Shown: positions 35,488 to 64,000 of the stretch, piece by piece
Position numbering within the stretch: position 1 is the first letter of the stretch
Layout of the letters: every line of letters begins with the position of its first letter
Translations under genes and position numbers: made by a program
Assembly: GCF_025698545.1 (NCBI RefSeq)
Contig: NC_068570.1
Location: 52,471,924-52,535,923 of the forward strand
DNA from: Gossypium raimondii
Taxonomy: Eukaryota > Streptophyta > Magnoliopsida > Malvales > Malvaceae
DNA length: 64,000 bases
Direction of reading: 5' to 3'
The notes under the pieces: model-generated
Seen by the model: only the letters and a program-made list of their open reading frames with translations
The model's database searches: none
Told to the model about the DNA's origin: nothing

Positions 35488-35780
35488 ATTAGAAACATGT
35501 ATCAATACCCCTGAAAGGTATCGATGCTTAAATCAACTTCGATGTTTGGAAAATTCAAAATTAAATCACAAGTGCTGATACTTTTGATAAGCATCGATAT
35601 CAAATTGTGAATCTGTTTCTTTTGTAAAATCAATCACCAATCATATGTATCGATACCTTTGTAAAGTATCGATACCTTGGTGTAGGGTATCGATACCAAA
35701 TTGGCATTCTATTTGTTAGAAAACTATTTAAAAATGCTAAGTATCGATACTTTGGTAAAGGTATCGATACCTTAGTGTCA
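35488..35780. repeat. Palindrome array, GGTATCGATACC type (LTR e2)
   Basis: At least seven copies or half-copies are present, including perfect GGTATCGATACC at 35686-35697 and near 35760. They alternate with spacers of 20-70 bases. Confidence 0.88.
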
Positions 35781-36058
35781 AAAACTACCATTTGGTCTCT
35801 TTTCATGCCAAAACCAAATTTGGTTTAAATAGTGCCCTAAGCACAACAGAAAACCTTCACAAAACACTCCAATTGCATACAAAACATACTATAATACCAA
35901 TTTCCAATCCATTATATCACAAGTTGACACCAATTCACTTCAATTTAACCTATATCAATTTAATTCAAACATACCATTAACCATAGGATGTTATCATTTA
36001 ATCTACTAAATCATACTTTAAACATACAATTTTCATGACCATTCATACCATCGTCTAA

Positions 36059-36467
36059 GGGTGTTCAAATTTGGGTTAAATCGAATTAACCGGCTGAACC
36101 AATCTAGTTTGGTTAATCAATCTAATTTGGTTGGAGGTCGGTTAATAATTTTTTGGAAATTCGATTATCGGTTAATTTGGTTTGAAATCGGGTAATTCGA
36201 TATGTAAGTTTAATTTGGTTAATTTGATTAATTCAGATAATTCGGTCAAATGAACATTATCAATTTATTTATTTTTGATATTTTTATACCTTTTTTAACA
36301 AAAAATATAAATTTTGGTTAATTCGGTTAACCGACCGAATTTAACCAAAATATTTTGGTTTGGTTAATTTTTTTGAAAAAAAATTGGTTCGATTAACGGT
36401 TAAAGGATTAAAAAGTTCGGTTAATTCGATTAATACTAGTCTAGTCCGGTTACCCGTTTGAACACCC
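36059..36467. mobile_element. MITE, 409 bp, TSD CTAA
   Basis: The ends are GGGTGTTCAAAT and GTTTGAACACCC in inverted orientation, flanked on both sides by CTAA (36055-36058, 36468-36471). The interior is built from GGTTAATTCGGTTAA-like repeats. It is noncoding. TAA could be the true target site, which would suggest the PIF/Harbinger group. Confidence 0.75.
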
Positions 36468-36728
36468 CTAACATTTTTCCTACAAACAAATCATCCCAAT
36501 ACTATTCATATGATCCCAAAAGTGATCAAAACATGTCGTACTTATATATATACATTATAACAACCCATTTTTAGTGGTGTCAGAAATAATAGTTTTGGGA
36601 CCACAAATTTGACGAGTAAATTATTATTTTAATGTTTATTTAAGGTCTACAAGATTATATTAAGGTCGAATTAAAATTTCGTTAAGAAATTTTGATGTTT
36701 AAATGGTTAATTAGGTAAAAAGGACTAA

Positions 36729-37359
36729 GGGCTAGTTTGGATGGGCGGTGTGTTTACCTCCGGTGAGGTTAAAAACAGCGGTGGCAGTGAGATCAGTTAC
36801 TGTAGCGGTGAGATTGGATACTGTAGCGGTGAGATTAGAAACAATGGTGGAGTGTGTGTTTGGATTCAAACGTAGCTGTAGCGGTGAGGTGAGAATAAAA
36901 AACGACTGTGAAAGACATCAGATTAGAATTGATATATAATAGAAGTTTTTTAAATTATTTTACTTTTTTAAAATTATTAAAATATGTGAATTTATAAATT
37001 CATTTAATAAAATATTAAAATGTATCTTCCAATATTTTAATGAATTATATAATTAATTTAAATTATTTATTAGATAAAATGATAATTATTTTAATAATAA
37101 ATGAAAATACTTTAACTTTCAAGGATAAACTTGTAAAATAATAAATGAAAATATGGGCATTTTGTGCGCAATAAAACTTGATCGCCCTTGTGTTTAAGTG
37201 GAGCTTTTACCTCCAGTTGGAAATGAAATTTGGCAGTGAGGTTCAAACCTTCAATCGCACCTCACCATTGTTTCTCCAAACACCAACACAGTGCAGGGAA
37301 AAAGAATATTCCTTCAAAATTCCATCTCACCATGGCTGATTCTGCATCCAAAGTAATCC
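36729..37359. mobile_element. Tourist-like MITE (PIF/Harbinger type), 631 bp
   Basis: The ends GGGCTAGTTTGGATGG and (reverse complement) GGATTACTTTGGATGC match at 12 of 16 positions. TAA target duplications flank it (36726-36728, 37360-37362). The empty site is visible in the related LTR near 16750, where GGACTAAATC is uninterrupted. Both subterminal regions carry CTGTAGCGGTGAG / CTCACC repeats. Confidence 0.85.
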
Positions 37360-38337
37360 TAAATCATAAAAGGTGTAAAAGTTGAGTTCTATTATTTAAA
37401 AGGGCTAAATGGCTATGGAAATGAAATTTAGTGGACTTGAATGGTAAATATACCATTGAAGGTGTTAGTGGATGTGCATGGGCATGATTTTAATGAAATT
37501 TTGATAGTTTTTAAAGGTTAAAATAGTAATTTGGTAAATAAAGCTAAAATAACCAAAGAAATTAAGCTCTTCTTCTTCTTCCCCATTTCATATTTCCATT
37601 GAAAATCACCATTGAAATAGGGTTTGAGCATTTGGCTAGGCTGCCATCTTACATGTAAGTGATTTCAAGCCCCGTTTTCAATGATTTTTATGTTTTTGAG
37701 TTCGTTTTAGCTTAATCTAGTTATTCCGGGGGTTAATTTGCAAAATTGTTAAAGGTTGAGGGACTTGCCATGGATATTTTTGAATGATTTTTGATGTTAG
37801 TAGATAGATTATGAATCTTTACTATAAAATAAACATGTTTTGTTAAGTGATTTTTGGTGAAATTATATTTATGGATTAAATTGTTAAATGTATAAATTCA
37901 TGGGTTTTATTGTGAAATGTTGGTAATAATGAGTTGTTTCAAGGTCCCTTGTAACTTTGGATTAAATTGAATCCTAGAAGTAATTAATTGAATGAAATTG
38001 TTTATTTAGATTAAGATAAACCACAATCGAACTTAAATAGAGAAAAAGCTAAAGCTTCGGATTAGTTCGACTATACTACTATGCCTCTAATTATCGAGGT
38101 AACTTCATATGAATTATGATTGTTTTAATGTTAGCTAAATTGACATTTACTATGTTGTTTTAGTATAAATGAATTTATAAATAAATGTATCCATGCTATG
38201 ATGAATTGATGGATAACTAGTCTCGGTTGAACCTTAAGAATTCTTAGGATACAAATGACATGTCATTAGGGATTTCATGTTTCGGTGCTAGTCTTGAATG
38301 CCCTACCGATGGCTGAGGTCCTGCATTTGTTGAGGAT

Positions 38338-38430
38338 TCTCCACAGCTCGTATGAGCAGTATCGTGTAGCTTACATTCTAACCCACAGCTCGTGTGAGCA
38401 GACCCATTTCACAGCTCGTGTGAGCAATAA
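38338..38430. repeat. CACAGCTCGTGTGAGCAG tandem units (LTR f)
   Basis: Three units, about 30-55 bp apart, lie in the mid-LTR array position. Confidence 0.85.
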
Positions 38431-39124
38431 TGTAAAGAAAATGTTACGATTATTTGTAAAGGAACACTATGTGTGAGCTTTCTCGAGTATCCAATGTAAT
38501 TCTAGATGGTTCAACTTGTGAGTTGATGATGCTTGTATAGGCTTATGTCAAGCTTATGGTTTTGGTTGATATTGAACCTATGCTATAAATTGTGTAAATG
38601 AAATGGTAAGTTATGTTTAAGTTTATATGAGCTTACTAAGCACTTGTTTCTTATGTAGTTACTTTTCTTTATTTTATAGATTATCGAAAGCTCGATCAGT
38701 TGGAAGCTCGTTGGAGACCTATACACTATCTCGCAACCGTTTCGGTAGTTTTTGAGTTTTTTGGCCAATGTTAATAATGAATTGTATAGTATCCTTGTAA
38801 TGTATGTTTTGGTATGTTTAAGCTTTTGGAAGTTATTTTGGTTTGATGCTTATGAATGCCTTGCCAAGTTATGTCATTTTGGGTCACTTGTAAGGGCTTG
38901 AAAATAAGGTTCTTTTGGCATGTTTTGTTGGCCTTCAAATGGTCATGTATGGTAGTTAAGTGAACTAGGTTAGATGTTTGAGATATGGACAAATTGTTTT
39001 GGTATGATTCTTAATGTTTGATACAATTGTGATGCCTTTGAATAGCATATTAGTTAGGTGATTTAGGATGTTTGATATGACATAATTATGAATGTTTGAA
39101 TGATGTTTGAACCTCTTGAATGTG

Positions 39125-39435
39125 TGCCTGGGACACGGGCTGTCACACGGTCATGTGACAGACATGGCCTGGCGACACGACCGTGTGACACACACAGTCT
39201 GGTGATACAATTGTGTGTCATTTGAAATTTCTTAGTGTTTCAAGGTAGTGAGTTACACAGCCTAGCACACGGGTGTGTGTGGCAACTGAGAGGGTTACAC
39301 GACCTAGCATACGACTTGGCACATGGGCATGTGGGGCAACTCAGTGAGTTGCACGGGTGAAGACACTGGCTGGTACATGACTGTGTGTCCCTTGTTTGAA
39401 TGTTACACGGCCTGGCCACACGGTCTTTTAGGGTC
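39125..39435. repeat. Palindrome array, CACACGGCCGTGTG type (LTR f)
   Basis: About a dozen diverged half-sites (CACACGG, CGTGTGAC, CACGGGTGTGTG) end about 185 bases before the LTR end. Confidence 0.8.
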
Positions 39436-39621
39436 CTGAATTACTTTTAAGTTATTTTTAGGGTCTCGAAGGCTCAATTTAGGGACAAAATGCATGTGAT
39501 TGAATAACTTGTAATGTGTTTAATTTATTTAATGTTATTATGATAAATGATTTTTGATTGTTCGTTAATGCTCCATAACCTTAATCCGGCGGCGGATACG
39601 AGTTAAGGGTGTTACATTTAG

Positions 39622-39633
39622 TGGTATCAGAGC
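39622..39633 (+). other. Primer-binding site for tRNA-Met
   Basis: TGGTATCAGAGC, the standard plant LTR-retrotransposon priming site complementary to the 3' end of initiator tRNA-Met, lies five bases after the 5' LTR. Confidence 0.92.
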
Positions 39634-39766
39634 TACGATTTAGCCGGTTCTCGGGCTGAACATAACATGTATGGAGTATAGAAATACATGCCAGTATATA
39701 ACCTATGATAGTGTGATAACTCCTAACTCCTAACTTAAAATGAATTATGTTTTCATATAGATAAAG

Positions 39767-41059
39767 ATGCCATCCAACCAAGCCGATTCTGATGAGGTTG
39801 AGAGTAATGCGCAAGCCTCTGTACATGGAGCACCTAGTAGTAAGCTTGTAGTTGAGGGCCGGGGAAGTGAGGCAAAAGAAGCCTTCTTCCAAATGATGTC
39901 AGAATGGTTCACTGAGTTCGTTAGAACGAACCCGATGGCTCAACGATATGAAACAAGTACTTAGGAACAAGCCTCTGGTTGATAAAATACGTAAATATGA
40001 GGCTGAAGAGTTTCGCAGTATAGCTGAAGATGATCCTGAAAAAGTTGAGTTTTGGTTAGAAAACACTATGAGGGTTTTTGATAAATTATCTTGTACACCT
40101 GTTGCATGTTTAAAGTGTACAGTATCTCTGTTGAAAGACTTAGCGTATCAATGGTGGAACACCTTGATTGCGGTGGTACCTAAAAACCGTGTGAATTATG
40201 ATTTTTTTGAGACAAAATTCAAGAAGAAATATGTTAGTCAACGATTTCTTAACAAGAAATGGAAAAAATTTCTCGAATTGGAATAGGACCGTATGACAGT
40301 AGCCAAGTATGAAAAAGAATTTGTACGACTCAGCAAGTATGCCTGAGAATGTATACCATCAGAGGTTGTTATGTGTACCTAGTATGAAAACGGTTTAAAG
40401 AAAGATACCAAGTTGTTAGTTGGAATTCTAGAGTTGAAAGAATTTGTGGGTTTGGTGGATTGAGCACATAAAGCCGAAAAACTCAGTAAAGCTAAAAGAA
40501 AAGTAGGTTTCGAGGCTTGTGACATTAGTAAACGATCTATGGGAAAGTCATTTTCTTCTTATCGAAGAATTCAAAGGAATTTCACAGTTGTACATTAGCA
40601 TCAGTGGGGTTTTCAGGAAGAGATAAAAGAAAGTAACATTCGAGTTCGAGACCTCAGGCTACATTTGTAGCGAGTGTGGGTAGTGTCTGAAATAATAAAC
40701 CTGAATGTCAACAATGCAATAGACGACATTTTGGGGAGTGTAGATTGATAAACGGGTCGTGTTTTAAATGTGGTTCTTGCGATCATTTCCTTAAAGACTT
40801 CCTTGAAAGATCGGATAAAGAGAAAGCTCAAAACATTCATTTGAGTAATACGATTGCGAGAGGGAGACTATCTAGAAATGGTGGCAATACAGGTAACAGT
40901 GAAAGTGGAATGAAAGATTCTACTGTTAGATCTGAGGCTCGAGCACCAGCTAGGGCTTATGCGATTCGTGCTCAAGAGGAAGCTTCAACACCTGATGTGA
41001 TTAGTATTACCAATGAAATTATAGAAAATACACAATGTATTCCATGTTTCAATGCTTAG
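39767..41059 (+). pseudogene. Decayed gag of a Ty3/gypsy element
   Basis: The reading frame starts at 39767 (MPSNQADSDEVESN). One frameshift near 39950 leads to the gag core, with WFTEFVRTNP, then EEFRSIAEDDPEKVEFWLEN, LKDLAYQWWNTL and FFETKFKKKYVSQRF. In-frame stops occur at 40284 and beyond. A zinc-knuckle-like stretch (CQQCNRRHFGECRLINGSC, CFKCGSCDHF) and the Ala/Arg-rich end ARAYAIRAQEEASTPDVI follow. It is intact in order but cannot be translated as one protein. It would have formed the capsid-like particle of the element. Confidence 0.85.
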
Positions 41060-41305
41060 GAGGTTCCACTCAGATCCATTTCATGTTATTGCGATGGATG
41101 AAATTGAGATTTAACTTTATCTTATAATGAGGAACCGGCCGAAATTTTAGCTCGTGAAATGAAAGAGCTAAGGAATAAACACGTCTCACTAGTGAAAGTC
41201 TTATGGTACAATCACAGTGTGAAAGAAGCGACTTGGGAACCAGAAGAGAAGATAAGGTCCCAATATCCTCATATCTTTTCAGGTAAAGTTCGGGGACGAA
41301 ATTTC
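41027..41305 (+). pseudogene. 3' end of pol with chromo-like tail, joined to gag by deletion
   Basis: The translation HNVFHVSMLRRFHSDPFHVI is the well-known end of gypsy integrase. It is followed by LVKVLWYNHSVKEATWEPEE, QYPHIFSGK and GRNFLKRGE, the chromodomain-like end. It follows the gag end directly, so protease, RT, RNase H and most of integrase are absent. A stop and a small frame change lie near 41112. Confidence 0.82.
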
Positions 41306-41307
41306 TT

Positions 41308-41320
41308 AAAGAGGGGAGAA
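41308..41320 (+). other. Polypurine tract
   Basis: The purine run AAAGAGGGGAGAA lies directly before the 3' LTR start TATAACAACCC at 41322. Confidence 0.8.
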
Positions 41321-41321
41321 T

Positions 41322-43600
41322 TATAACAACCCAAAAGTTAGTGGTGTCAAAAAACGTGGTTTTGAGACCCCATCTCCATAAACCAGACTTTTGAATATTT
41401 TATTAAAGATTTTCGAAAGTTATATTGTAGGTGAATTGAATTTTCGATAACTAATTTTATCAATTTAGTGATTAATTTAAGTTCAAGGACTAAATTGTAA
41501 AATTGATAAAAGTTCAATTACGATAGGGTTTATCATATAATCTTAGGCTAAGGACTAAAGTAGAAACTATACCACTATACAAATGGAAATGAACGGTGAT
41601 GGCTAGTGGGTAATGTTTTAAATTATAAAATTTTATTTATTAAAATATATATATGTTAGTTTTAGTGGAAAGAAAGAAAAAAATACATTCTTTTCATCTT
41701 TATGCCCCAAATCTCCATTTTTGGGGAGAATATATTTTACCTTAGGTCTTCAAACTTGGAGCTTCAATTGGTTAGAGCAATTTAGTCATTTTTCTTGTAA
41801 TTTTTATGTTTTTGGAATCTCAAGAGCTTAATCTAGTTGACCTGTGCTTTATTTGTGAAACTGTTAAAGTTTTAAAAGAATGCCATTGATGAATCTTTTA
41901 AGTTTAGGGTACTATATATATAGAATTTAAGCTTAGAAGTGAAAAAAGACTAAATTGTAAAGTTAATTTATAGTTTTGCACAATAGGGACTAATATGCAA
42001 GTTTTAAAATTTTGTGTTAGAAATTAGAAATAAGAAGTCCTGTAAGGAATATAGTGAAAATGTTTTGAAAATATGAGTTCTAGATTGAAAGTTATATTAG
42101 TCTCGGTTTTAAGGAATAAATTGAACAAAATGTAAAAGTTGTATAAATTTACGATTGAGTGCGAATTCGTTTGTATATTGCTGAATTGTTGTGTTTATGT
42201 TAATCTGTAGCTAACATTGACCCAAATTTCTCGAAAAAGAAAGGAAAAGACAAAGCCGTCGACGAATAGCTTGAAGTTTACAGTTTGTATTTCTATAATC
42301 TGAAGTACTTTGAGTTTCACTGCATTATGAATTGTTTGCATGGTAAGTTTATAAGGTGAGTTGGTATTAACGAAAATGAATTCAATTGATTTGGTTTGAT
42401 TTGATTGATATCGATGAGGGCTAAATTAAATATATGTGAAAATATTATATTTTTATATAAATGTGAAATTGAGCCTATATGGTAAGGAATGGTGCTGCTC
42501 CATGTATGACTTAATATTTTGGTATTGAATTATAAATTTAATTGAGAAATGGTTACCTTATTAACTGTTCGGGCAGGGTTGGGTATAATTGGCATGTTAC
42601 AAGATAGGAAGATTTCAGGGTTATAGAAGACTACGTGTTGGGGAGTGCTGGGCACACCCATTTTTTGGTTATAATGACCAATTCTAGGCACATATATTTG
42701 TTGATTATATAGACCAGCGTTGGGCAGAACTTAGTATAAAAATGGAATAAATGTATTATGAAAGGATTTGGTATGAAAATGTATTGTTTATTTGATATAT
42801 AAAGTTCGAAATTGAAAGAGAAATGAGACATTATATTATTGAAATAGTAACTACGAGATAAATGTATCAAATGTTGAATAATGTTTGACAAATTATGTAA
42901 TAGTATGCGATAATATTAAATGACATATGTATCTTATGATCTTTAATTCTTGCTCTAGTATAATTTATATTATGATTTGTTATTCAGATTGTGGAAATAC
43001 CACTGAGTTCATACTCAATGTGTGGTTTTGTTTCTGTACGCAGATTAGGTTTTGATCTTGTACACTTGTTGAAATCAACATCCAATTGCGATCACAGACT
43101 CAACATGTTGGTGATGTCTTTTTTTTTTTTTTGTTAATGGCATGTACCTTAGGGTGTCCTTTGATTATACAAAGTTATGTTACGAGATGATGGTCTGGTA
43201 TTTTGATACTTTGATATGGTACATACACTTATCTTAGTTGGTTGATAATGATATGAAACTTGTAAATATTAAATATGAGGTGCTAATGTTTGGTAGTGAA
43301 TTGATTAAATGGTATATGTGACTTGAATAACTAAGATTGTATGTTAATATTACTATGAATAGGTAAGGGAAATGTTTATTATGTATTAGACATGAAACGA
43401 TCATATGTGAATAAATTGAATATGCATATTGAAAGAATAAATTCTTGTTGATTAGAATAAACTTGTTTGGTTATTAGTTTAAGTGATGGAATAGTTGATA
43501 CATTGTGTTAAACCCGAATAAACATGTAATTGTATTCTATGTATTTGAATGATGAATAAATAAATAAAGTTAATTTTATATTTCACTATTATATCTTTTG
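41322..43600 (+). mobile_element. 3' LTR-like sequence, unlike the 5' LTR
   Basis: It starts TATAACAACCC, but beyond the first 30 bases it resembles the LTR at 48353 (TAGTGGTGTCAAAAAACG, then ACCCCATCTCCATAAA) more than the 5' LTR of the same element. No GGGTGTTACA end is found; the right limit near 43600 is estimated. Confidence 0.6.
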
Positions 43601-45131
43601 TGTTTCTATCTGACATGTTTTGCATGTATAGAAAAATTGTGACAAGAAAATGTTAGCATATTGATTGTCTAAGTTCAAACTGATGATAAGTGGCATTGTA
43701 AGAATGTTTACACTGTGAGAAAGACAACTTACTTCAGTAGATAACCTAAACAAGTTTGTAATCCCGTAAAAAGAATTAAAGTGGGCATTTGATTCAAATA
43801 TTTAGAAGGATTATTATGTCGTCTGCAATTCCAATTAGGGAGATGTTTAGTCTTGGCCACCGGAGCAGTTGACTCTACGAGTAGAGATATAAATGTACTC
43901 ATTGGAAGAATGATACATTGGACTGGACCCAAGAAGAATTAATTTTGAATCTATTTATGAATTAATTCTCTTGTGATGTTTATGGTGTGACTTACCTAAA
44001 TCCTAAGTTAGTCACTGACCATGCGTATATAACTTATGTGCTTTGATATTAGTATAAGTGGAGGCTTATGCTCTAAAGATGATCGAGTTGATAATCGGTA
44101 TGTTGGGTACATGACTTGTGTATGACATGACTTTACTAGCAACAATGGACTTCATAGCTTAATTAAAAAAAGTAAAGATATCCTCTCATTGGCATTGATT
44201 GGATTGATAAATATGGGACGTGGCCACAAGTTACTGGTTCTCGAACGACTAATTTATCACAATTATTAGTTGATAGTGGTCATATTAATCATTAAGAAGA
44301 CATAATGGTGACAATGAGATAAAATAAGATTGTACTGAGTGAAGTATTTAATTCAAATGAAAATGATATCATATAAGGGTAACACACATATGACAAGGTC
44401 ATTGGAAAAAACAGTTGGACGAATTGCTTTCGTATATGATAAGGTCATTGGAAAAAGCAGTTGGACAAATTGCTTTCATAAAGAGTATACAATAAGGAAT
44501 TTTCAATCATGATACTTATTGTATACTGACTTTATGATTAAGTAAATTGTGAATTATCGGAATGATACTTCTGGATATAATTGTAATTACTCGAGCCTAA
44601 TTGTATATGTCAAATTGGTCCCTCCACTAGCTCAATAAAAGATCGATCAATCTGCATTTGAATCAGAAGAAAATTCTACGACTTTGGAAATAATTTAATT
44701 GAGTTGAATTACTTGATGTGGAATTAAATTAAGTGGTCGTGGGAATTGTTCAACTAGAGAATTTGATTAAAGAATTTCCTTGAAAAATTAATTTAGAAAA
44801 TCTTAGTGAATTTTGGGAAAATGAATTTTGATAAATTAAAATTAAATATGATATTTTTGAAAATTAATTTTCAAGATCGAAAATTAGTCACATGGATAAT
44901 TGAACTTGGAAATTGGACTCAATATCGAAAATTGAACTAAGAACCAAAACTTGAGACTGAAACCCAAAAACTGGTTGAACAAGGCTATGTGTATGTAACT
45001 GGTCCCACGGTCCAACCGGTGGATAGATCGGACTGTTCGGGATGTCACTAGCCCAGATCGAATCGAAAATAGTCGAATAGGCTAGGCCCATTCGAGCAAA
45101 ATGGTGATGGTTCAGGGTTTCGGGGAGGTGT
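43601..45131 (+). mobile_element. Unclassified retroelement-like remnant
   Basis: There is no coding domain. The CATTGGACTGGACCCAAGAAG stretch and downstream leader-like sequence resemble noncoding parts of plant LTR elements. It includes a 51-bp tandem duplication and continues at 48067-48186 after a solo LTR insertion. Confidence 0.35.
44385..44483. repeat. Tandem duplication, unit about 51 bp
   Basis: Two copies run TGACAAGGTCATTGGAAAAA, CAGTTGGACGAATTGCTTTC and TGATAAGGTCATTGGAAAAA, CAGTTGGACAAATTGCTTTC. Confidence 0.92.
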
Positions 45132-45376
45132 TGTAACACCCTTAACCCGTATCCGATGCCAGAACAGGATTACGAAGCATTACCGGACTTCTAGATCAAT
45201 CAATCAAACATTTCATATACATTTCTCATTCAAATAAAAAACTCATTTATAATCAATCATATTGTCCCTAATACGAGCCCTCGAGGCCCCAAATAGATAT
45301 TAACAATGGTTCGGGACTAAACCGAGTACTCAAGAAATTTTTAGGAAAACATTGAAATTTTTTCAAAGTGCAGGGG

Positions 45377-45735
45377 ACACACGTCCGTGTATCTCACTGA
45401 CGCCCGTGTGGGCATTCAGAATGGACCTTACGCCCGTGTCCTAGCCCGTATAGCTCACTGATTTGGGTCACACGGCCAGACCACACGCCCGTGTGCCAGG
45501 CCGTGTACGCTTCAAAATGGCCTCACACACCCGTGTGCCAGGCTGTGTGCTAGGCCGTGTGAAAACTGGAGGGTATACTAACTTGTGCCACACGGCCAAT
45601 CCACACGCCCGTCTGTTAAGCCGTGTGAAGCTATTGACTTGATTTCTATAGAAGTATCAAAGGACACACGTCCGTGCCACCAGGCCGTGTGTCATACACG
45701 GTTGAGACATACGCCCATGTCTCTGCCTGTGTGGA
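45377..45735. repeat. Palindrome array, CACACGGCCGTGTG type (LTR g)
   Basis: More than ten half-sites such as ACACACGTCCGTG, ACGCCCGTGTG, CACACGGCCA and AGGCCGTGTG are present. The array starts about 245 bases from the LTR terminus. Confidence 0.88.
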
Positions 45736-46727: not shown

Positions 46728-46832
46728 AAATGGTAAGCTCCTCCGAGTTGGATATCGGTAAGCTCATACGAGTTGTGAATCGGTAAGTTCTGACGAGCTG
46801 AAATCGAAAAGCTTATACGAGCTGTGGTGTGT
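46728..46832. repeat. AAGCTCATACGAGTTG tandem units (LTR g)
   Basis: Four units have the core AAGCTC-TACGAGTTG and a spacer like GATATCGGT, with a period of about 27-30 bp. Confidence 0.85.
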
Positions 46833-50010: not shown

Positions 50011-51138
50011 ATATTCATTCAGCTCAGATAACTGGGGTAATAGGATAATTATGCATGATATGAATTTTATATTTTAAAGCTGTTATATGTTGAATTGATT
50101 AGCCATATGGTATCGAAAAGTTGATATTGAATTGAATTGAATTGAACAGTTTAAAGTACATTGTTTGGAATGTGTTTGAAAACGTTTTATGTATGTTTGG
50201 AAGTGTACAAATACACTAAAGGTGCAAACGGTTGGAAAGAGTGATTATGAACTTAGTTGATATGTTTATAAAATGTATGTGAGGGAAATACATGAAAATA
50301 ATTAGTATGGTGGTACATGTTTGTAATTTGAATACTTTGATTTTATTATGCCAATGTACTAACTTGTGGTTGTTTTGTGAATTGGTACAAGATTGCTTAA
50401 GGATGTCAAAGAAATGTCATGTTATGTATATTTGTATTTCTATTGATTAAATTAATATAAAATTTAGGTACGTTAAGTGAAATTTCGTATGAACTTACTA
50501 AGCATTTTGTAATGCTTACCCCGTTACTTTTCTTTTCTTGTAGATTTTGACTTGTACAACGTGTTGACCGAACCCTCGAGGAGCTCACACTATCCATCTC
50601 ATGATTCAGTAGTTCTTTGATCGTTTGAGCTCGGTTATATGTGGCTTGTACTTAGGGTTTGTCATATTACCTTAGAATGCTAAGTTTGATTTAGAACTAT
50701 TTTTTATATATAACTTATATTGTAAATGCCAAATGGTATATATGCATAAGCTGAGTAATGTGCTATAATGACTGTTTGATATCTAAAGTTGCATGATTGA
50801 TCATGAATTGAATTGAAGAAATGAATGGTTAAGTCCATGAAATGGTATAAATAAGTATGATGTGTATTGGTTCAAAATGTGGCATACTGGTTAGATGTTT
50901 AGAAGGATGGTTATATGTTATGTTTTGGTTTGTTTTGAATCTTAGAAGTTTGGTTGTATTTAGATGAGATATTAGTTTAGTTGAGGTTGGAATTGTATAA
51001 AGGAATGATTGTGTATGTTTTTGGAATGGTTTATGTGCAGGTTTTGAATGTGCTTAAGGCACTATTTAAGTAAAGGTTTGGTTTAGGCATGGAAAGGGAC
51101 CAAAGTGTGAGGGTTTTTGGCATTTTGGCAATAAGGTA

Positions 51139-51472
51139 TCAATACACTAGGTAGAGGTATCGGTACTTTGCATTTTTCAATTGATTTTTCAAACATCGAA
51201 TGTCAATTTGGTATCAATACCGAACTAAATTATTGATACTTAATACTAGAGTATCGATACTTTACAAGGGTATCGATACTATTCAACTTATGTTTTAAAG
51301 TTTTGCAAAACAGAATGCCAAAACGGTATGGATACTAATTTAAGGTATCAGTATCTAATGATAAGTATCGATACTTCAAGACTATTATCAATACCTTTTA
51401 ATTTAACTTGATTTTATTGAAACACCGAACCTAGAAATGGTATTGGTACCTAGACTTGGTATCGATACCTAT
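51139..51472. repeat. Palindrome array, GGTATCGATACC type (LTR j)
   Basis: Some ten copies or half-copies are present (AGTATCGATACTT, GGTATCGATACTAT, GGTATCGATACCTA). It is the same palindrome as in LTR e2, although the two LTRs have opposite orientations. Confidence 0.87.
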
Positions 51473-51720
51473 ACTTGGATTAACTCAGGAGCTTTCGTAA
51501 GCTCGATTGAGGCTCGATTTTGATTGTATATCATATTATGCATGGAATTATGTCATGAATCGGTGATGGAGTGAATTAATTGCTATACATTGTATATGGT
51601 TTTCTTTGATATTGGTGGTAGCATTTCCTAGTTCGGGGCCATTGATTGGACCGAGCGAGAGGTCTTAGAGGGACTCTGCCGGGTAACTTGATTTCAAATT
51701 AACTTTTCCAAACATAATAT

Positions 51721-51927: not shown

Positions 51928-51935
51928 TATATAAA
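51928..51935 (+). promoter_or_regulatory. TATA box of the Athila-like LTR
   Basis: TATATAAA, inside the near-palindrome CTCTCTCTATATAAAGAGAG, lies about 430 bases before the primer site. Confidence 0.65.
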
Positions 51936-52384: not shown

Positions 52385-52527
52385 CTTTGTGTGTGATTTA
52401 TATGATTGTTGCATGTTATCTTTGGAATATAATTGGCCAAAGCTATGTATATAGATACAATGTTTTATTTTTATTTTTATTTTCATTGGTTTCTTAATTT
52501 CTTCTTGTTGAGAATTGATTGATAGTC

Positions 52528-54183: not shown

Positions 54184-55495
54184 ATGCCATCAAGGAAAAC
54201 CAAAAGGACTTAATCTCAACCTAAACCATCTTCGTCGTTAGGGTTTGTTCTGAGTAAATTTAAATCACAAGAGGTTTAAATTTTTTCCCTTATGCTTCAA
54301 GGATGAATATTCATCCTTGAACATGGTTTTGACCCAACCTCGTCTTTATGCGATGAGCGGGTGGCATAACTTCTGCCTTGTGCCAAAAGCACCTGTTGTT
54401 ATACCTGTTGTTTTGGATTAATACTCCAATTTAAAATTCACTGTAGATAACTGGGTTTATGTTCGACTCCAAAAGGATGATATCTCCCCTAAAATGATTT
54501 GTGACTATTATGGTGTTCTGTTTTTCGAAAAGGACAACATTTCTGCTATGGATTTACAATTTTATATAAATGTCAACATGGACGCCATTTTAAGTTATTT
54601 AACTGATAATAGGGGAGAGCGTAAGTGAGAACCATACAGAGATTTCCCTCTTTCATTTAATTAAGTCATGCAAAGATGTGGATGCATTTTATTTGTACCC
54701 GTGTTAGCCCTATTCTTAACATTAATACGGTTAATATCTACCGAGTTGTTTTGCTGTATTGTATTTTGTATCATAAGAACGTCTGTTTAGGGAGATGAAT
54801 CAATAAGGAGATGAGGAATGTATGGCTGGAGGCAAAGTTGGTAACTATTTCCTACACCTAATTACGAATTTATACTATAAAGAAAGGGTGGTTGTGGAAC
54901 CAACTGATCACCCCACCCGTAGCATCATAGGCGACTCCATGCTCCATCAATTCAAAAAACTACAGAGAAACAAATTCAAGAGTGGAACTAGTGCCAGAAA
55001 CACAAGATAGAGATGCCTCCTGCCTTTCTGAAGAAGGCCATTTCAAAGAAGGCTTTCAGAGGCAAAAAAACGTAGCTCGATGAGCTATTAAAGATGGTGC
55101 GGTACAACACTCTGATGATGAAAGTGAAAAAGCTGTGTGCTGATCATTACACGAAGAGACACAGGTTGGAAGACTTACATTGGCCGGTGAAGCCATGAGT
55201 TGCATCCTTTTGAGGAGAAGGAAGAGGAGAAGAAGAAGAAAAAGGCGGAGGGAACAATAGAGAAGATGAAGAGCAAGAGGATTAGATAGAGGACGATCAC
55301 CTTGAGCCCTATGTTGATGAAATGGAGGAAGTGTTTGCTCTAGAGCGTCCCTCAACCAAGGGGGTAGTCTTTTGCAGCCATAGGGAGGACGAGTCACGTA
55401 ACCAACCACCCCAACGATTTTACAAGCGGGCTACAATTAAGGGAAATGGGAAAGAGATAGTGGAATCGAAGTCTGACTCCAATGGTGAAAATTAG
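54184..55495 (+). pseudogene. Decayed 'putative plant transposon protein' frame
   Basis: It starts MPSRKTKRT and soon meets stops and frameshifts. Across frames one can read the family landmarks: GWHNFCLVPKAPVV and PVV, then VYVRLQKDDISPKMICDYYG, then RVSPILNINTVNIYRVVLLY and INKEMRNVWLEAK. The end is Lys/Glu/Asp-rich with KGNGKEIVESKSDSNGEN. This matches the short protein often found at the 3' side of Athila-like or non-autonomous gypsy elements, sometimes called a putative plant transposon protein. Its function is unknown. At least five lesions prevent translation. Confidence 0.65.
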
Positions 55496-55676
55496 TTACA
55501 TTTTTTTGCATACCAATAGCGGAATGTAACTATTAAATACTGAATTATTTTGAATTGAACTTGGTTTTGGATGGTTTTTGTTTTTTATTTTGTTATTCGC
55601 ATATGTTTTTTGTGTTTTTCTATGTAGGCAACTCATTCGAGAATTACATTAAAAATACGTGCTTAAATATGAAAGT
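55496..55676. other. Athila-like interior left of the solo LTR h insertion
   Basis: T-rich noncoding sequence ends in the target site AAAGT (55672-55676). Confidence 0.5.
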
Positions 55677-57471
55677 TGTAACAGCCCGATTTTGACCCTA
55701 ATCAGACAAAGTGGTTTCAAGACCACAAATTCGAGTCAAAAAATAATTTAAAATTATTTTTGGTATTTGCAGTATGTGAATTACTATGTGCGAAAATTTC
55801 GTATGAAAATTAGATCGTTTGAGTGCTCAATTTGATTAAAAGGGCTTAATCGCGCAAAATGAAAATTTAGGGGGTTAAATCTAAAAGCATCTATTTGTTG
55901 TTGTCTTTTTAATCAAAAGGTTTAAAGATGCAATTTAACCACTATTTAGATAGTGGATGGTTAAGGTCAAAACTAACCTTAATATATAAAGGTTATAATT
56001 ATTTTTAATAAGGTTAAATTAGTAAATTAAAATTTATTATAATACATAATAGTTAAAACATAAAATATAGTTTGTATTATCTTCTTTAGCCGAAATTGAG
56101 ATGAAAGAAAGCCATTAAAATGCTTGAAGAAGGTTATAATTAAAGGTTTGTTTTTGTTCGGTTTTTGAAAATTTTTACGTTTTTGAGATCGTTGCTGTGT
56201 ACTACAAGACCCATGCTTTAATTTTAGAATTTGGTGATGATTTTGTGATATGCCATTGATGAATGCTTGAGCTTTGTGATAGTTGATGATGAAATGTGAA
56301 AGATTAACATGTTTTGTCTTTGAATTTTTGGTGAAATTAAATTTTGGGGGGACTAAAATGTGAAATAAATTAAATATGTGGACTTGTATGAGCACTAGGA
56401 ACATTCGGCCCTTGTATAGTGTGGGCAAATTTTGTGTATTTTTGTGTTTTATGCAATAGGGACTAAATTGTAAAAAGTGTAAATGTCAGGGGTAAAATGG
56501 TAATTTTCTCATTTATGTGTTTTTGGACTAAATTGAATGTAATAATATTTAATTTAGCTCATTTTGAATATATTTAGATCAAGAACCAAAGAAATCGGAG
56601 TTGGATCAGGGAAAAGCTAAAGTCGTCGACTAATCGTCCGGTTTTGATTTTTCACTATCCGAGGTAAGTCTATTAGCTATTTAATATTATTAAATTGGTA
56701 TATATGTATGTAAATGTATTGTATTTTTGTTGAACTTTAATTTAAAAGTATATTGATTGAAATAAAATAAAGTATGAATGATATACATGTATTATTAATG
56801 TTCGAATATATATATAGGTTTATACTTATATAAACCTTTAAATTTAGTTAAAGTATAAATGGTATATAAGTATATACATGTATAAATTATTGGATTAATC
56901 AAAGATATCTATAAGATATATGTATATATATAAGGTTCGAATGATTATATAAGTATATGTATATGTATAAACTCTTGGATTTGATTTGTGATATGTATGT
57001 TATAATTGTATATATATATTGAATAAGCATGCAAATATACATGTATGTGTTGTGTATTGAATTTAGATATGTCATTATATAATTATATGAGGATCGATTA
57101 TGCATTTATATATGTATAAGTTCTTGTTTTGAAATTGAGTATGAATTTATACATTTATATGGTAGATTGAATATGTATAAATGTACATGTATAATTTCTT
57201 GAATTGAAATTAGGTATGGAATTATATATGTATACATGAGGTCGAATGTGAATGTATATGCATATGTATAAGTTTTGTATTGAATTAATGGTATGAAATT
57301 ATTAGCTTAGATTATTTTAATATGTTCGAATGTTAAATGTATATTATTTAAGTATATTATAAGTTAATAGTATGATAGTAGTAGTAGGATCCAAAATATA
57401 AGGTTATGTATAGATATGTTCGGTGGAATCATTAAGTTATGAAGCTGGAATTGATAATACAAATTACATAA

Positions 57472-57492
57472 ATATATATATATATATATATA
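57472..57492. repeat. (AT)n microsatellite
   Basis: About ten AT units lie inside LTR h, in a region rich in ATATGTATAT-like steps. Confidence 0.9.
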
Positions 57493-57599
57493 TCCATGTG
57501 TTGAAAGAGAAAGATTATAAGTTTTGAGCTGAATTTTACGTATGGATTTATATCCACAAATAGTTCAAATATGAGATACAACTTATGTGAATTGAGATT

Positions 57600-57840
57600 T
57601 CAAGCTCAGTGCCTAGAAGGCTTATTGCCAATGAGATAATTCAAACTCTATGTCTAACAGGCTGGATGCCGGTGAAACAATTCAGACTCTATGTCTAGCA
57701 GGCTTGATACCAGTAAAACAATTCAGACTTTATGTCTAGCAGGCTTGATGCCTGTGAAACATTTCAGACTTTAAGTCTAGCAAGCCAAAAGCTGGTGTAC
57801 TGAATCAGGTTTTAAACCTAGCAGGCAAAGTGCCGGTGAA
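57600..57840. repeat. Tandem array, unit about 43-45 bp (LTR h)
   Basis: Five to six units contain TCAGACTCTATGTCTAGCAG, then GCTTGATGCCGGTGAAACAA, with gradual divergence at both ends. Confidence 0.92.
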
Positions 57841-58963
57841 TCTGTTTATATTACGTGTTTAAATATAATGGATATGCGAATGAATTATGTCATATGAGTT
57901 TGAAGAACATGTACATATATTCGGTCATTGGATGTTGATGAGCATATAATCATTCATTTATATGTAATTGAAGAGCATATAAATATATATATTTTTTCTT
58001 ATGCATTTGCTAAGTTTATATATATTCGGATGTATGCATGTGATAATCTATATATATATGCATTTGGTATATGCATTTAATAAGCATCTACATATACGGT
58101 GAAATGCATTTTTGGTAAGTAGGAATATATTCGGTTAAATTTGTTTGAGGTCTATGTATATATATAAATTGATGATAATCTTTGTTAAGCATATATATAT
58201 GCATTCGACTATTCTTGTTTAAAGTGTAGATGCATTTGGTCTTAAATGTTGATAATTATGCAAGCATTTGACTATCGTAGGTGATATGTAAATGTATTGG
58301 TTGTAAAGTTTGATGAGTATTTATAAATACATTTGATTATATGCATGTCATATATATATATGTGTACTCTTTGATATGAATGCTATGAGTTCATATATTT
58401 GGTTATAAATAAGATATTTATGAATAGCAATATTCAAATGGTAATATATGTAGTATCCATGATTTCATTAAGTGTACGCAGGAAATTATATAATTTATTT
58501 TATATTTAGTTATGTTGTAAACTTACTAAGCTATAAAAGCTTACTTTGTTTGTTTATGTCTTTCTATTTTATAGATTTAAAGATCAAGCTTCAAGCTTGA
58601 GGATCGTCAACAAGATCATCACTCTATCTACTATCTCGGTATTAAAATGTTTAAATTTTAACTATGACATGTATAGACTAGATAAATGTTTTGAAGGTCA
58701 TACTTTGTTATATTGTATTTTAATTTTATAGCCATACGAAAATGATTTATTTCCTTATCGATTAGTTGGATTGTAAAGTCTTTATTTTGTTTTAAATGAT
58801 CTAAGTGAAGTTCATAATATGTCATATTTAATATTTGATCAAGTTTATTAAATTTTAAATATTTATATACAATGTATATGTTTTGATTTTGTAATGGTTG
58901 TGTTTTGTTCAGTAATGCCTCGTAACCCTAATTTGGCGACGGATACGGGTTAGGGGTGTTACA

Positions 58964-61004
58964 AAAGTGGACAACCCTAGCTTGCCTTGATGAGCGGTCA
59001 CAATATTTAGGGATGTCCGATAACCTTTCTATCTTTGTTTGGGGAATGCACATTGGGGACAATGTGTAATTTAAGTGTGGGGGCATTCATATAAAAATTT
59101 TGCATGCTTAGTTACTTTTATGGTTGTGTGTTTGTTTTATCTTTTTGTTTCAATTGTGTATGGTACTTGAACATTGTGTGATTGACAATTGGTTGAATGA
59201 GGCATGATATGATACTTTGAATGATGCTAAATAAATTCTATTCTTAGTGAGCTATATTAGTTAGTTCAATTAGTTACATTGTATAGTAAAATAGAGGTAG
59301 CCAAATTTCATGAAATTTTTAAAAATTTTAACCAAATGATGAATGAGTATGTGGATAAATGTGTGAATGCATGCATTGGAATTTAACATTATTCATGGAA
59401 AAAAGTAGAAGCATGTTTCGGGTTTGGGTATATTGAGATGCTAAGGCATGACCTAAGACATTGTTTGTTATCCAAGAGCCTAAATGACTAACCTATTAGC
59501 TATATACAATCCTATTACCCTAATTTTGAACCTTGTGATCCATTCTTAATGAACCAACATTTTTGAACCTTGAGCCTAAAGTGAGTTAAAAATTCAACCC
59601 TTCTTATTCCTTAATCTTAAATTTCACTATAGAATGGACATCATGCCACGGGCATTAAGGGGTAGGTAGGAACAATTTGGAGGTTTAAAAAATGTAGCTG
59701 AGCGGATAGTGAAGAGATGGTTCGATATAGCGTGTATAGGCTCTTACAAAAGGTGTGAAGAACGAAAAATGTGAGCAAACAAGGAAAAAATTGTGAGAGT
59801 CAAAACCAAAGCGAGTGAATAAAAAAACATGATTAGAGATAAAAGAATTGTGAGTGAAAAGAGGAAAAATTGTAAAATATGCTCAAAAGGAGAGATCAAA
59901 CATTTCATTGTCATAGTGCAAAAATACTCACTAAGTTGTTTGCACTAACTAATATTGAGCCATATCTTCAACATTATTAGAGAGAAAAAGAATGTAAGAG
60001 AAGAAGAAATAAGGTGGTGAGTGTAAAGATTACATATTGGGGGAATTGGGAATAATGTCATGTGCTATACTAGAGCCTAGGTATTGTTATACCGTTGCTT
60101 AACGGGAAGAAAATTTATTGTAGGGTTAGTTTTTGTCCAACATCAACACCAATCAAAATAAAACATCCAGGGGCATTTTGGTCAAAAATTTTAGGTTGTA
60201 ATAAGATGTTAAAAGCCACTTTTGGCTGAGAATTAAAAAAAAGAGCGATTGACTTTACTTTTTCTATCATATTTTTATCTTTCTAATTATCTTCTTCATT
60301 TTTCTAGGGTTTAGTTTCAAGCTTTTCTAGTTTTTAGTTGTGTTAGTAGGTAGTTAGTTAGTTTTTATTGTAGCTTTGTCTTAATTATTATTTAGTACTC
60401 AAAATCTATTTGTATTTTAATTTTAATCCAAAACATTTAATATATCTCAACTATATTTCCTTTTTCTTAGTTAAAAATCTTAACTTTCATGATATTTTGT
60501 ACCTCCATTGTTGTCACCTTCATTCTCCTCAACCATCAAGAAATCAATAAGCTTTCTTCAACCCTATTCCTTGTGCTTATTTTAATATATGTTGTGAACG
60601 TATGTGGGGTTGTTGCTTGTATGTAAACGATGATGAGTAACTAAATTCATGGTAGTGGGTTGATAGAAATGTTGCTTGGTTTGTTTTTGGTATAAGTACT
60701 AAACTAGATAAACTTTGAAACTTAGAATTGACGCCTCTAGGGTAAAACATAGATAACTGAGACCGAGAGGAGACCATATCGAGCACCAATTTAGTTGTCT
60801 TGAGTTAGTTTGGAGAGGTCGAGAGATAAATCAGACTAAATCGCCTAATTTGGTAAAGTGGTGACCGAGAGGTAAAATTGAGCCAATTAAAAGTTTAGGT
60901 TTTTTAGATCCCTAATCCAAAGACTAATTAGCAACATGGAAATCAATCAACCATTTTTGTTTATTGAATTGTTAATTTCTTAGTTTTGGAAAACAATCCT
61001 GAGT
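58964..61004 (+). mobile_element. 3' part of the Athila-like element
   Basis: It resumes after the solo LTR with GGACAATGTGTAATTTAAG and TGTGGGGGCATT (59058-59087), the purine-rich landmark that follows the last frame of Athila-type elements. About 1.9 kb of noncoding, A-rich 3' sequence follows. No 3' LTR terminus is visible before the next LTR fragment. Confidence 0.6.
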
Positions 61005-63627
61005 CTTATTTTCACATGCATTCAAACATTAATCACATTCATTTTAGGTTAAACAAATAATCTCGAGTCTTAATCAAGCTTACAAAATTATTTTGACAAT
61101 TCAAGCATGAAATATGACCAACTTGCAAAGATTTAGAAATTCAGGGGTGACATCGGGGCATCATCTCTTCCATGTAATGACGTTGCCAAACAGTTTGTCA
61201 CGTCACAAAATCAAGCCACTCGATGTCGCGATGTGACTCATTGTCGGTCGACATTGCAACGAGGTAGGTTGCTCATCAAGATGTGGACTCTGTTTTTGGT
61301 AAATTTTGAGTCATTTGGTACCTATTTCAAAGTTTCCATTTCAACTATTCAAAAATGTATCAAAATATTATTCCCAATTGTCTCAAAACCTACCTAAACA
61401 TACCTAATATTTCAAACAAATATGTTTAAGTTTCCATCCATCAAAACATTCATTACATGTACATCATTCACCAAGTCATTCAATACCAACTTTACCTATG
61501 CCAATCCACTTTAAAACATGCAATTTCATATGCCATACATACCTCGAGCATATAAACCAAAATACTCCAATTCAACTAGGTATCACAAATGCCAAATCAT
61601 GCATTTCTAAACCACATACCAAAACCAACGTCTAAATCACATAAACCAAGTTCAATGCCATATTCAACTCGTAAAGACTTATATAAAATAAAGTTTGCTC
61701 CACACACTTATATACATGCCACAATTCTTGACTCAAAATAATAAAAAAGCTACTGATTCAGTGATAGTGTGAGCTCTGAGATGATTTGGCTTGACGAGTT
61801 TCGTAAGGTGACAATATACAAGGAAGAGAAAAGGGAAAAATAAATAGGGTAAGCATATAAGATGCTTAGTAAGCTCATAAGGAAACTAAAGCTTACGTTG
61901 AGCATTAAAGTATAAACAACCATTCTATTAGGCTACTAATTTAACTTCCCTTAACATATTAACACATATCTATACATGCAACATCACCAGAAATCAAATA
62001 TGTTAATTACGTTTCTCAAATCGTAAATATTGCTAACAATTAAAACATAATCATATAGCAATCTATATGTCAAGTATCATCAATATCATTTCAATTTCAA
62101 TTCATGAATTAAATTCCATTTTCAATCAATTGAACATCGCCCAATAGAACTATAATAAAATGGATTCGAATATACGAGAATGTAATGCTCACACAAGCTG
62201 ACATTATATCGAGCTAAACCTATGATACATATATTTCGAGGATTTGCAACAAATGCTAGATCTCATAATAACCTATAAAATCCCTGATTAATCACTTATA
62301 TAACCCTAATAGCATGTCATACGTATCCTAACATTTTAGTAAGTTCATTCGGGCATCATTTCCATACAAATGACATTATCAATTCCTATACTCAATTTCA
62401 TTTCTCATATGAAACATATATTTAGTCAACAAGCTCGTTTACATCCTGTTCTATTTCTATATAACCAACATTCTCAAGAATTTTACAATTCAGTCAATTT
62501 TGAGCTATAAGTGCCAAATTCACTAATTCATTTAAATATTACATATAAATGAAATAGAAAACAAATAAACATGACATAAAATAAATTAGTAAGTTCTATA
62601 TGAACTTACCTAGTCAAAACAACAAACAACTGAATCTTTAAGAACTAATCGACAATTTTGGCTTTTCCTCGATTATCACTAGTTTGATTCAATTCTTGAT
62701 CTATACAACTATTCCATTCAATTAATCAATACCAAAGATTTATACACTATTTCATTATATGAATGAACCTGTGAAACTTTATTTTTTATACCCTAAATTT
62801 TTACATTTTATACAATTTAGTCCCTAAAACTAATATAATTATATCTTTCAATTTTGAGCATCGATTTTAAAACCAATTTCAATTACATCCCTTAAGGACT
62901 CCATATTATCTATTTTTACTGCAATTTCACATTAATTTCACAATTTATTTCACTTTAGTCCTTACGATCAAAATTAACAATTAAACATTACAAACTAGTC
63001 CTTTTCACATCTAAGCTTAAAATCTATCAATTTAACACTGATTTCTTCAAGAAATAAACAATGGAAACTTTCAAAAACTTCAATTTTTTTCAAATTGGTA
63101 CATGGGCTAGGAAATTAAGCTCCCATGACCTCTCAAAAACCTAAAATTTACAAGAAAATGACTTAATTGAACATACCAATTGAGGACCAAAACTTTGAAA
63201 GCTTCCAAGGGCTTTCTTTGTTTTAACTCACAGCATGAAGAAGAAGATAAACGTGATGCTTAAAGTTTTCCATTAACTTATGTATTTTATACTTTAATTA
63301 AAATTTAATTAATATTAATTAATTAATCTTAATCACAAATAACTAAAATTAATGGATGTTAAATCATTCTCCACTAATTGATGAAACAAAATGATTTATG
63401 TACCATTTAAAACCTTTATCTATTTAAAAATCTATAGCGATAAAATTTTTACATTTTAGTCCCTGTACCTTAATTAAGTAATTAATAGACAAAATTGAAG
63501 GACCAAATTTTAATATTCTTTTATACCAACTCCTTAAATATTCATATTTGATATTTACGAATCTAGTTTACGAAAATAGGGTTTTCAAACCACCTTTTTC
63601 AGCATCATTAAAAATCGGGTTGTTACA
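61005..63627 (-). mobile_element. Gypsy-type LTR, minus orientation, left end missing (LTR k)
   Basis: It ends AAAAATCGGGTTGTTACA at 63627. The left TGTAACACCC end is lost. The internal order matches e1, including CTTACAAAATTAT, TTCAAGCATGAA and a GATGTCGCGATGTGAC array. Confidence 0.72.
61149..61290. repeat. Palindrome array, GATGTCGCGACATC type (LTR k)
   Basis: Half-sites are GACATCGGGGCATC, TGACGTTGCC, GATGTCGCGATGTGAC, GGTCGACATTGCAACG and AAGATGTGG. Confidence 0.72.
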
Positions 63628-64000
63628 TAAATTAGGTGTTTATGCCTTGATGCATTGAATGCTTTGGTTTGATGATATATAATTGTGTTTTGCATGTACC
63701 ATTTGGGTTTTTTTATTTGGTTTAAAGTTAGGTATGTTTAAATAGGTTTTGGTCATGATTGAATGTATTTAAAATGTTCAATTTAAGTAATTTTACCATT
63801 TAGTCTCTAGACAATAATAAAATGTCTCGAGACCCTAAGCATAAAATGTATCATTTAAGATGTTATTTTGTTCATGGTCTTGGGACCAACCTTTTGGGTC
63901 TCTAGAAATTGGGCGTATGTCTCAAGAGTCTCTATCTCAAGATAAAGGCACATCGAAGCTAAATTTATTTTGCATTGTTCTAGGTCTTGAGACAAGAACC
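63628..64000 (+). mobile_element. Plus-oriented LTR fragment running off the window
   Basis: The sequence has the general composition of the region before a plus LTR 3' end (GTATGTTTAAATAGGTTTTGG) and enters a palindrome array. No terminus is visible in the window. Confidence 0.5.
63826..64000. repeat. Palindrome array, GTCTCGAGAC type
   Basis: The copies are TGTCTCGAGACCC, GGTCTTGGGACC, TGTCTCAAGAGTCTC and GGTCTTGAGACAAG, reaching the window edge. Confidence 0.78.

Follow-up and report, generated by a model that had tools for sequence, protein, structure and literature searches.

Arrays of short words in chromovirus-type LTRs of a Gossypium raimondii window, with a mirrored base-pair difference between two array types

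A 64-kb window of the Gossypium raimondii genome (contig NC_068570.1, positions 52,471,924 to 52,535,923; coordinates below count from the first base of this stretch) holds decayed retrotransposons whose long terminal repeats (LTRs) carry eight arrays of short words, clustered at a similar position within the LTR. Four array types, T1 to T4, are distinguished here by the words CACACGG, GTATCGATAC, GATGTCG and GTCTCGAGAC, respectively, and each array is referred to by its approximate position in kilobases. Units of the T2 and T4 arrays differ at one mirrored base pair, and this difference recurs from unit to unit. The mirrored change, found in one pair of array types, adds to an original prediction according to which palindromic arrays in eight LTRs are exchangeable at one position; the positional clustering is real, but palindromy and exchange were overstated. 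All array findings come from this one window of decayed retrotransposons, and the T2/T4 result from three arrays within it. We lean, by a little, towards reading the arrays as clusters of sites in chromovirus LTRs for a putative DNA-binding protein with sequence specificity, which on the palindromic types at least would act as a dimer.

A mirrored difference between T2 and T4 units

The T2 arrays occupy 35488..35780 on the minus strand, in an LTR whose 3' end lies at 35246, and 51130..51472 on the plus strand, where the LTR end is degenerate and perhaps near 51680. The T4 array (63803..64000, plus strand) is cut by the window end, with units starting at 63803, 63824, 63877, 63898, 63919, 63934 and 63984. 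The core words of the two types have 8 of 10 positions in common and differ at positions 3 and 8, a pair brought opposite one another by the palindromic symmetry. A search with GTNTCGANAC, in which these two positions were masked and six of the other eight had to match, found AT at the diagnostic pair in 8 of 11 sites at 35.5 kb and 11 of 12 at 51.3 kb, with CG in none, and CG in all six sites of the T4 array. Departures from AT were TC, AC and TA in the 35.5-kb array and AA in the one at 51.3 kb. The full motif recovered a seventh T4 unit, which was too degraded to be picked up with the mask in place. Because the differences are mirrored transversions, CpG decay is not their source.

At a match of 7 of 10 positions or better, the 35.5- and 51.3-kb arrays contain 9 and 13 units and the T4 array 7. 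Successive units are spaced by 20, 54, 21, 19, 56, 19, 54 and 19 bases at 35.5 kb, by 21, 54, 19, 21, 19, 56, 19, 20, 20, 29, 26 and 19 at 51.3 kb, and by 21, 53, 21, 21, 15 and 50 in T4. After a shift, five of the seven T4 units fall at most one base from T2 positions, a coincidence reached by 14 of 5000 random placements for the 35.5-kb array and 63 of 5000 for the 51.3-kb array; the two T2 arrays coincide with each other at six of nine units (11 of 2000 random placements). When 1024 palindromic 10-mers were applied to the T4 stretch, four equalled the spacing match, all of them GTCT..AGAC variants. Mean pairwise identity of the 12-mer units is 0.77, 0.73 and 0.67 in the 35.5-, 51.3- and 63.9-kb arrays, whereas the six bases on either side of the units reach only 0.40/0.43, 0.31/0.31 and 0.30/0.25, and a clear consensus beyond the core was not seen in T4. 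Recent tandem copying is thus unlikely, since it would have kept the spacers.

Old tandem repeats, expanded by slippage and since drifted, could have left palindromes as by-products with no function. The regular T2 spacings (mostly 19-21 and 54-56 bases), the varying number of T2 units (9 against 13 matches) and the three of eight related LTR termini that manage without arrays would fit such an origin. We nevertheless regard it as unlikely: the bases flanking the units are of low identity while the units are conserved, and the mirrored T4 change is not what duplication followed by drift would be expected to give, save where a single changed unit was the early source of all the others.

With T4 differing at one mirrored pair and sharing part of the T2 spacing, the comparison favours T2 and T4 being one array altered in place, by concerted change, over wholesale exchange. 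The proposal that palindromic structure is kept while sequence changes is supported by the one mirrored pair at which T2 and T4 differ; the T1 and T3 arrays are not mainly palindromic. A mirrored change carried across an array gives a hint that a paired DNA-binding protein recognises the units.

Array position and palindromes against chance

An nhmmer profile built from the terminal 75 bases of seven LTRs recovered eight LTR 3' termini in the window at E 6e-13 or better, at 15710(-), 18432(-), 22309(+), 33635(-), 35246(-), 39616(+), 45132(-) and 58963(+). Seven of these had built the profile, the sole independent match being 18432, and five more matches, at E 0.009 or weaker, were left out of the count. 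The T1 arrays lie at 15963..16142 (minus strand, LTR 3' end 15710), 39125..39435 (plus, 39616) and 45377..45735 (minus, 45132), and the T3 arrays at 33868..34015 (minus, 33635) and 61149..61290 (minus, with no recognisable LTR 3' end). The five arrays with a recognisable end (16.0, 33.9, 35.5, 39.2 and 45.5 kb) lie 253, 233, 242, 181 and 245 bases from it, and the 51.3-kb array would lie 208 bases inside if its LTR ended at the guessed 51680. The predicted distance of about 185-250 bases accordingly describes the five measured arrays (181-253), the three others having degenerate, unrecognised or cut ends.

Each array was compared with 1000 dinucleotide shuffles over the bounds first predicted, which for the 51.3-kb array are 51139-51472. 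Perfect palindromes of at least 10 bases number five at 35.5 kb and five at 51.3 kb (four of the latter being the motif and one not), counts reached by no shuffle. Single palindromes are found at 16.0 kb (191 of 1000 shuffles) and at 45.5 kb (321 of 1000; a spacer word), and none in the 33.9-, 39.2-, 61.2- and 63.9-kb arrays. Inverted 7-mer pairs exceed all 1000 shuffles in five of the eight arrays, with 28 pairs at 16.0 kb, 216 at 35.5 kb, 66 at 39.2 kb, 84 at 45.5 kb and 126 at 51.3 kb; at 63.9 kb, 11 of 1000 shuffles reach the observed number. Only the T2 arrays are arrays of perfect palindromes, and equal palindromy of all four types was ruled out by this array-by-array test. Palindromic arrays in eight LTRs, as predicted, thus hold as perfect palindromes for T2 and as an inverted-word excess in five of eight, with T1 mostly one-way and T3 at chance.

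The T1 arrays contain 9, 9 and 19 half-sites, against shuffle means of 1.2, 2.8 and 3.0 (0 of 500 in each case). The T3 arrays match each other by BLAST (62% over 302 columns including the array, 5e-20); an excess of GAYGTY/RACRTC words is found in the 33.9-kb array (5 words, 1 of 1000 shuffles), which shows no excess of palindromes, and is marginal in the other (41 of 1000). As for the predicted consensus words, CACACGGCCGTGTG occurs exactly once, as a perfect copy at 16110-16123 in the 16.0-kb array, GGTATCGATACC three times and its core GTATCGATAC nine times, and GTCTCGAGAC once, at 63824-63833, two bases ahead of where it had been placed; GATGTCGCGACATC has no exact occurrence. Two of the arrays cited in the prediction fall outside 35488-64000, the part for which it was made.

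A segment 170-600 bp inside each of the eight LTR 3' ends was compared with 500 shuffles; the bounds, identical for all eight, were picked after the array distances were known, and the 51.3-, 61.2- and 63.9-kb arrays were not counted. Inverted 7-mer pairs exceeded all shuffles at four of the eight termini (15710, 35246, 39616 and 45132; z 6.1, 19.3, 6.3 and 8.2), and terminus 33635 showed no excess (98 of 500). A scan of the whole window, blind to LTRs, yielded six peaks of at least 20, against maxima of 11-16 in five simulated windows. Of these peaks, four coincide with listed arrays and the other two lie at 36101-36475 and 56651-57050; the 16.0-, 33.9-, 61.2- and 63.9-kb arrays scored under 20. 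With a GC content of 0.27-0.38 per 2 kb the window is rich in AT, and its CpG observed/expected ratio is 0.62 overall, 0.53-0.84 in T1, 1.11-1.18 in T2, 1.00-1.07 in T3 and 0.47 in T4. High CpG was rejected as a mark of T1, given its values of 0.72, 0.53 and 0.84.

The arrays might instead act in the transcript, as hairpins or as sites of loop-loop dimerisation, the latter being conceivable because any two palindromic units can pair. Sense RNA folds below shuffles in six of the eight arrays (z -8.7 at 51.3, -6.4 at 35.5, -5.0 at 45.5, -4.5 at 33.9, -3.3 at 16.0 and -2.8 at 63.9 kb), against -1.2 and +0.5 in two control LTR segments, and sense beats antisense in five of eight, clearly at 51.3 kb (-8.7 vs -5.3) and 33.9 kb (-4.5 vs -1.4). 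Folding is, however, expected of any palindromic array. Antisense is strong too in these six arrays, except at 33.9 kb (-5.2 at 35.5, -5.3 at 51.3 and -4.2 at 45.5 kb), beats sense in the remaining three (16.0, 39.2 and 61.2 kb) and gives -2.6 in one control segment, while sense folding at 39.2 kb (-1.2, 12 of 100) and 61.2 kb (-1.6, 7 of 100) is within chance. Within T2/T4 units, G-T mismatches outnumber A-C mismatches by just 18 to 12, and RNA pairing does not demand a single motif throughout an array. A role in RNA structure therefore seems improbable, to much the same degree as an absence of function.

Homologous flanks and a putative binding protein

Oriented segments of 1400 bases around the arrays were compared by BLAST, with 30 shuffled sets as a control (best E 7.8e-6, none at 1e-6). 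The 33.9-kb (T3) and 51.3-kb (T2) LTRs match on the upstream side (60% over 594 columns, 1e-15), with a weak match downstream (2e-5), and the 33.9- and 35.5-kb LTRs match downstream, from array end to LTR end (61% over 232 columns, 4e-13). Likewise, the 51.3- and 61.2-kb LTRs match on the upstream side (2e-14), again with a weak match downstream (8e-6), and the 35.5- and 61.2-kb LTRs match downstream (5.5e-8). Between the T2 and T3 array stretches themselves, BLAST reported no match across types. Since the flanks match beyond the 30 shuffled sets, T2 and T3 arrays are taken to occupy one LTR position beside homologous flanks, and the claim that alignable LTR sequence lies beside differing arrays is borne out for these types.

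A four-way alignment puts cross-type identity at 0.31-0.57 within the arrays, at 0.55-0.60 directly behind them and at 0.51-0.66 in a few windows directly in front. It falls again far upstream (0.35-0.49); the dip at the array is therefore not sharp on the upstream side, and the picture is not clean. The T1 LTR at 39.2 kb matches the 51.3-kb LTR far upstream (5e-11); beside the array, T1 LTRs match other types at just 1.5e-4 and 5.6e-5, values also attained in a few shuffled sets, and array-adjacent homology of T1 to other types is not safe. The T4 LTR, compared by its upstream flank only because the downstream flank lies beyond the window, matches the 16.0-kb LTR upstream (1e-12) and, at a borderline 8e-6, the 61.2-kb LTR just before the array. 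Two array-less LTRs, at 22.3 and 59.0 kb, have their last 79-156 alignment columns in common with T1 LTRs (2e-8 to 2e-14).

Recombination between LTR subfamilies could swap whole arrays as cassettes at one position. T2 and T3 arrays, set between matching flanks (33.9-51.3 kb upstream, 33.9-35.5 kb downstream) and with no cross-type array match reported, are what such exchange would leave; fast divergence of one ancestral array could, however, equally have made T3 unalignable, and cross-type identity is low far upstream as well. The common core positions and partly shared spacing of T2 and T4 point, moreover, to versions of one array altered in place, not to exchanged cassettes. Exchange, as originally predicted, is thus possible for T2 and T3, and we consider it very unlikely as the explanation of the arrays.

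In the preferred reading, that of binding-site clusters, the arrays would belong to the regulatory region of LTRs of Ty3/gypsy chromoviruses, where each T2 or T4 unit would offer two mirrored half-sites and T1 units mostly single ones. A protein would occupy many sites in parallel, in the fashion of an operator array, and its binding might set LTR transcription or the escape of the LTR from silencing. Were the recognised base to shift, the half-sites of the whole array would follow, which would let palindromes survive even as their sequence changes from one LTR subfamily to the next. A dimeric protein is suggested by the conserved units in diverged surroundings, the facing half-sites and the array-wide mirrored change. 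A bolder version holds that chromovirus operator arrays switch specificity as a whole, a putative dimeric factor (of the element or the host) and some twenty half-sites per LTR changing together by mirrored pairs, so that each LTR subfamily would have its own regulatory or anti-silencing address at a single position in the LTR; this we put forward as a doubtful but conceivable extension. The T2 LTRs also have in common a CACTATTTAA word about 65-75 bases ahead of the first unit, a possible but uncertain TATA box.

Several points weigh against the preferred reading. The T2/T4 comparison involves three arrays, one of them cut by the window end; the T4 units were first located with the motif of the original prediction, and the spacing and mirrored-pair tests were devised post hoc. 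The LTR of the T4 array runs past the window end, and by eye the outermost T2 base pair lacks clear co-variation. T3 arrays are at chance for inverted 7-mer pairs (296 of 1000 shuffles at 33.9 kb and 741 of 1000 at 61.2 kb). T1 half-sites run mostly in one direction (7 forward to 2 reverse, 7 to 2 and 12 to 7, with 1, 0 and 3 mirrored pairs), and therefore need no dimer. T1 spacings are mixed as well (19-21 and 55 at 16.0 kb, 54 twice at 39.2 kb, and 12-13, 30 and 41-42 at 45.5 kb); one spacing for all types thus does not hold, and it was discarded as a common feature. Three of the eight LTR termini are array-less, at 18432..18496 (minus strand; nhmmer 5.7e-13, outside the model set; inverted 7-mer pairs 233 of 500), 22238..22309 (plus; 1e-18; 174 of 500) and 58892..58963 (plus; 4.8e-20; 367 of 500), and these served as controls. 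Finally, it is from clustering, flanks, conserved units and a mirrored pair that we infer protein binding, a dimer state, a source in host or element and an effect on transcription.

The 39.6-kb element, related systems and significance

Among the eight termini, the 39.6-kb LTR is the one tied to coding parts. Its terminus (39546..39616, plus strand; nhmmer 7.7e-17, with a model built from this and six other termini) ends in GGGTGTTACA and is followed by an exact match to the word TGGTATCAGAGC (39622..39633, plus strand), which we take to be a tRNA-Met primer site; together, at 39607-39633, they form an LTR end in ..CA with a primer site, as in a Ty3/gypsy chromovirus. At up to two mismatches the primer-site match is unique in the window, leaving one of the eight termini with such a site. 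Downstream lie a gag fragment (39897..40283, plus strand; Pfam Retrotrans_gag 6.1e-4, under the curated cut-off) and a chromodomain piece (41108..41323, plus strand; Pfam Chromo 5.7e-6, over the cut-off), whose top match among solved structures is Clr4 (E 0.0026). A chromodomain, as expected of a Ty3/gypsy chromovirus, is present in this one examined element, which looks like a chromovirus remnant with broken reading frames. A frame at 40691-41059 is followed by 48 bases and then by the chromodomain frame; as this leaves little room for pol, which with its integrase precedes the chromodomain in Ty3/gypsy chromoviruses, the copy seems to be pol-less. Across 39622-41323 the gag region thus runs nearly straight into the chromodomain, and the remnant could be a deleted, non-autonomous form.

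Other features of the window stand apart from the arrays. Upstream of the 35.5-kb array, inverted ends TAAGGGTGTTCAAA ... TTTGAACACCCCTAA enclose many GGTTAA and CGGTTAATTCG words (36056-36471), presumably, by its look, a small hAT-type element. Rfam MIR7502, a microRNA family described from cotton, has three matches in the window; a self-complementary stretch at 30835-31119 matches on both strands and has a second copy at 26373-26632 (about 26.5 kb), and the family apparently resides on a hairpin element that is repeated. A reading frame at 26720-27427 carries Pfam DUF751 (4.8e-23), which we take to be Ycf33, a plastid-type protein, and is probably a normal nuclear gene. At 54296-54321 lies a perfect 26-base palindrome, TTCAAGGATGAATATTCATCCTTGAA, and a 265-base unit is tandemly duplicated, 92% alike, at 24516-25038.

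Searches of other collections added little. Viral contigs gave no match for three array patterns and no relatives of the gag piece; GTATCGATAC twice at 8-11 bases occurred in 7 of them, with 2 or 3 copies each. Plasmid records yielded no match to the LTR end at 35.2-35.8 kb. A scan of prokaryote genomes for an LTR end plus primer site returned six contigs with AT-rich LTRs and a plant-type terminus, very alike between assemblies and probably plant contamination of bacterial assemblies. By eye their LTRs resemble one other family, and no significant array is seen in them (25 to 54 of 300 shuffles reach the inverted-word count in five, one being too short); they therefore serve as an outgroup only.

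Palindromic repeated LTR motifs are already known from Sireviruses; the arrays here are in LTRs of a chromovirus type. Such palindromic repeated motifs (RM) are described in the LTRs of 13 Sireviruses and as absent from classic retrotransposons (Bousios et al. 2010, PMC2829016). Each element has eight or more of these palindromes, often over 85% alike; they precede a conserved TATA box and make up CpG islands, and their consensus varies between elements, being near-identical in some, with a CGG-CCG core in all but one (PMC2829016). The arrays described here resemble RM in their many short-palindrome copies clustered in one LTR region, in a consensus that differs between elements, in the CGG-CCG core contained in T1 arrays and in the ATCGAT core that T2 shares with the Tnd-1 motif ACAATCGATTGT. 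They differ in that Sireviruses are Ty1/copia elements, whereas the one coding-bearing element here has a chromodomain and is not placed among them. Against the RM copy number and likeness, T2 and T4 arrays hold 9, 13 and 7 units at the identities given above, the other arrays not being mainly palindromic. From alignments inspected by eye, no TATA box could be placed in the LTRs here, and, set beside the CpG islands of RM, the CpG ratios here run from 0.47 (T4) to 1.18 (T2) against 0.62 for the window. An array-wide mirrored base change was not met in the available part of PMC2829016.

The targets of VANC proteins in Arabidopsis VANDAL elements are dense arrays of short non-coding motifs that vary between relatives, with units changing together (Hosaka et al. 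2017, PMC5735166). The arrays here are similar in their short, dense motifs, in their variation between related elements and in units that change together, and T1 is mostly in one orientation, like the non-palindromic VANC target YAGTATTAY; VANC was shown to bind (PMC5735166), whereas the binding protein here is putative and the elements are LTR retrotransposons. In cotton, Tekay is the predominant Gypsy lineage among full-length elements (PMC12389642); the 39.6-kb element has a chromodomain, as Tekay-type chromoviruses do, and is a candidate member only. The words 'palindrom' and 'motif' do not appear in the main text of that paper, and the palindromes of PMC6911290 lie at insertion sites, a separate matter from LTR arrays. 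Among the matches listed, judged by titles and abstract starts and with subscription journals mostly outside the search, none dealt with palindromic arrays in LTRs of cotton or of chromoviruses; searched as letters, three of six array words occur in the literature, in five papers that by title are on other subjects.

Should the pattern hold across the genome, palindromic LTR arrays would extend beyond Sireviruses to Ty3/gypsy elements, with two cores in common. The array-wide mirrored change merits counting on that scale: the number of mirrored relative to one-sided differences among many copies would offer a clean and cheap handle on the co-evolution of LTRs and DNA-binding factors.

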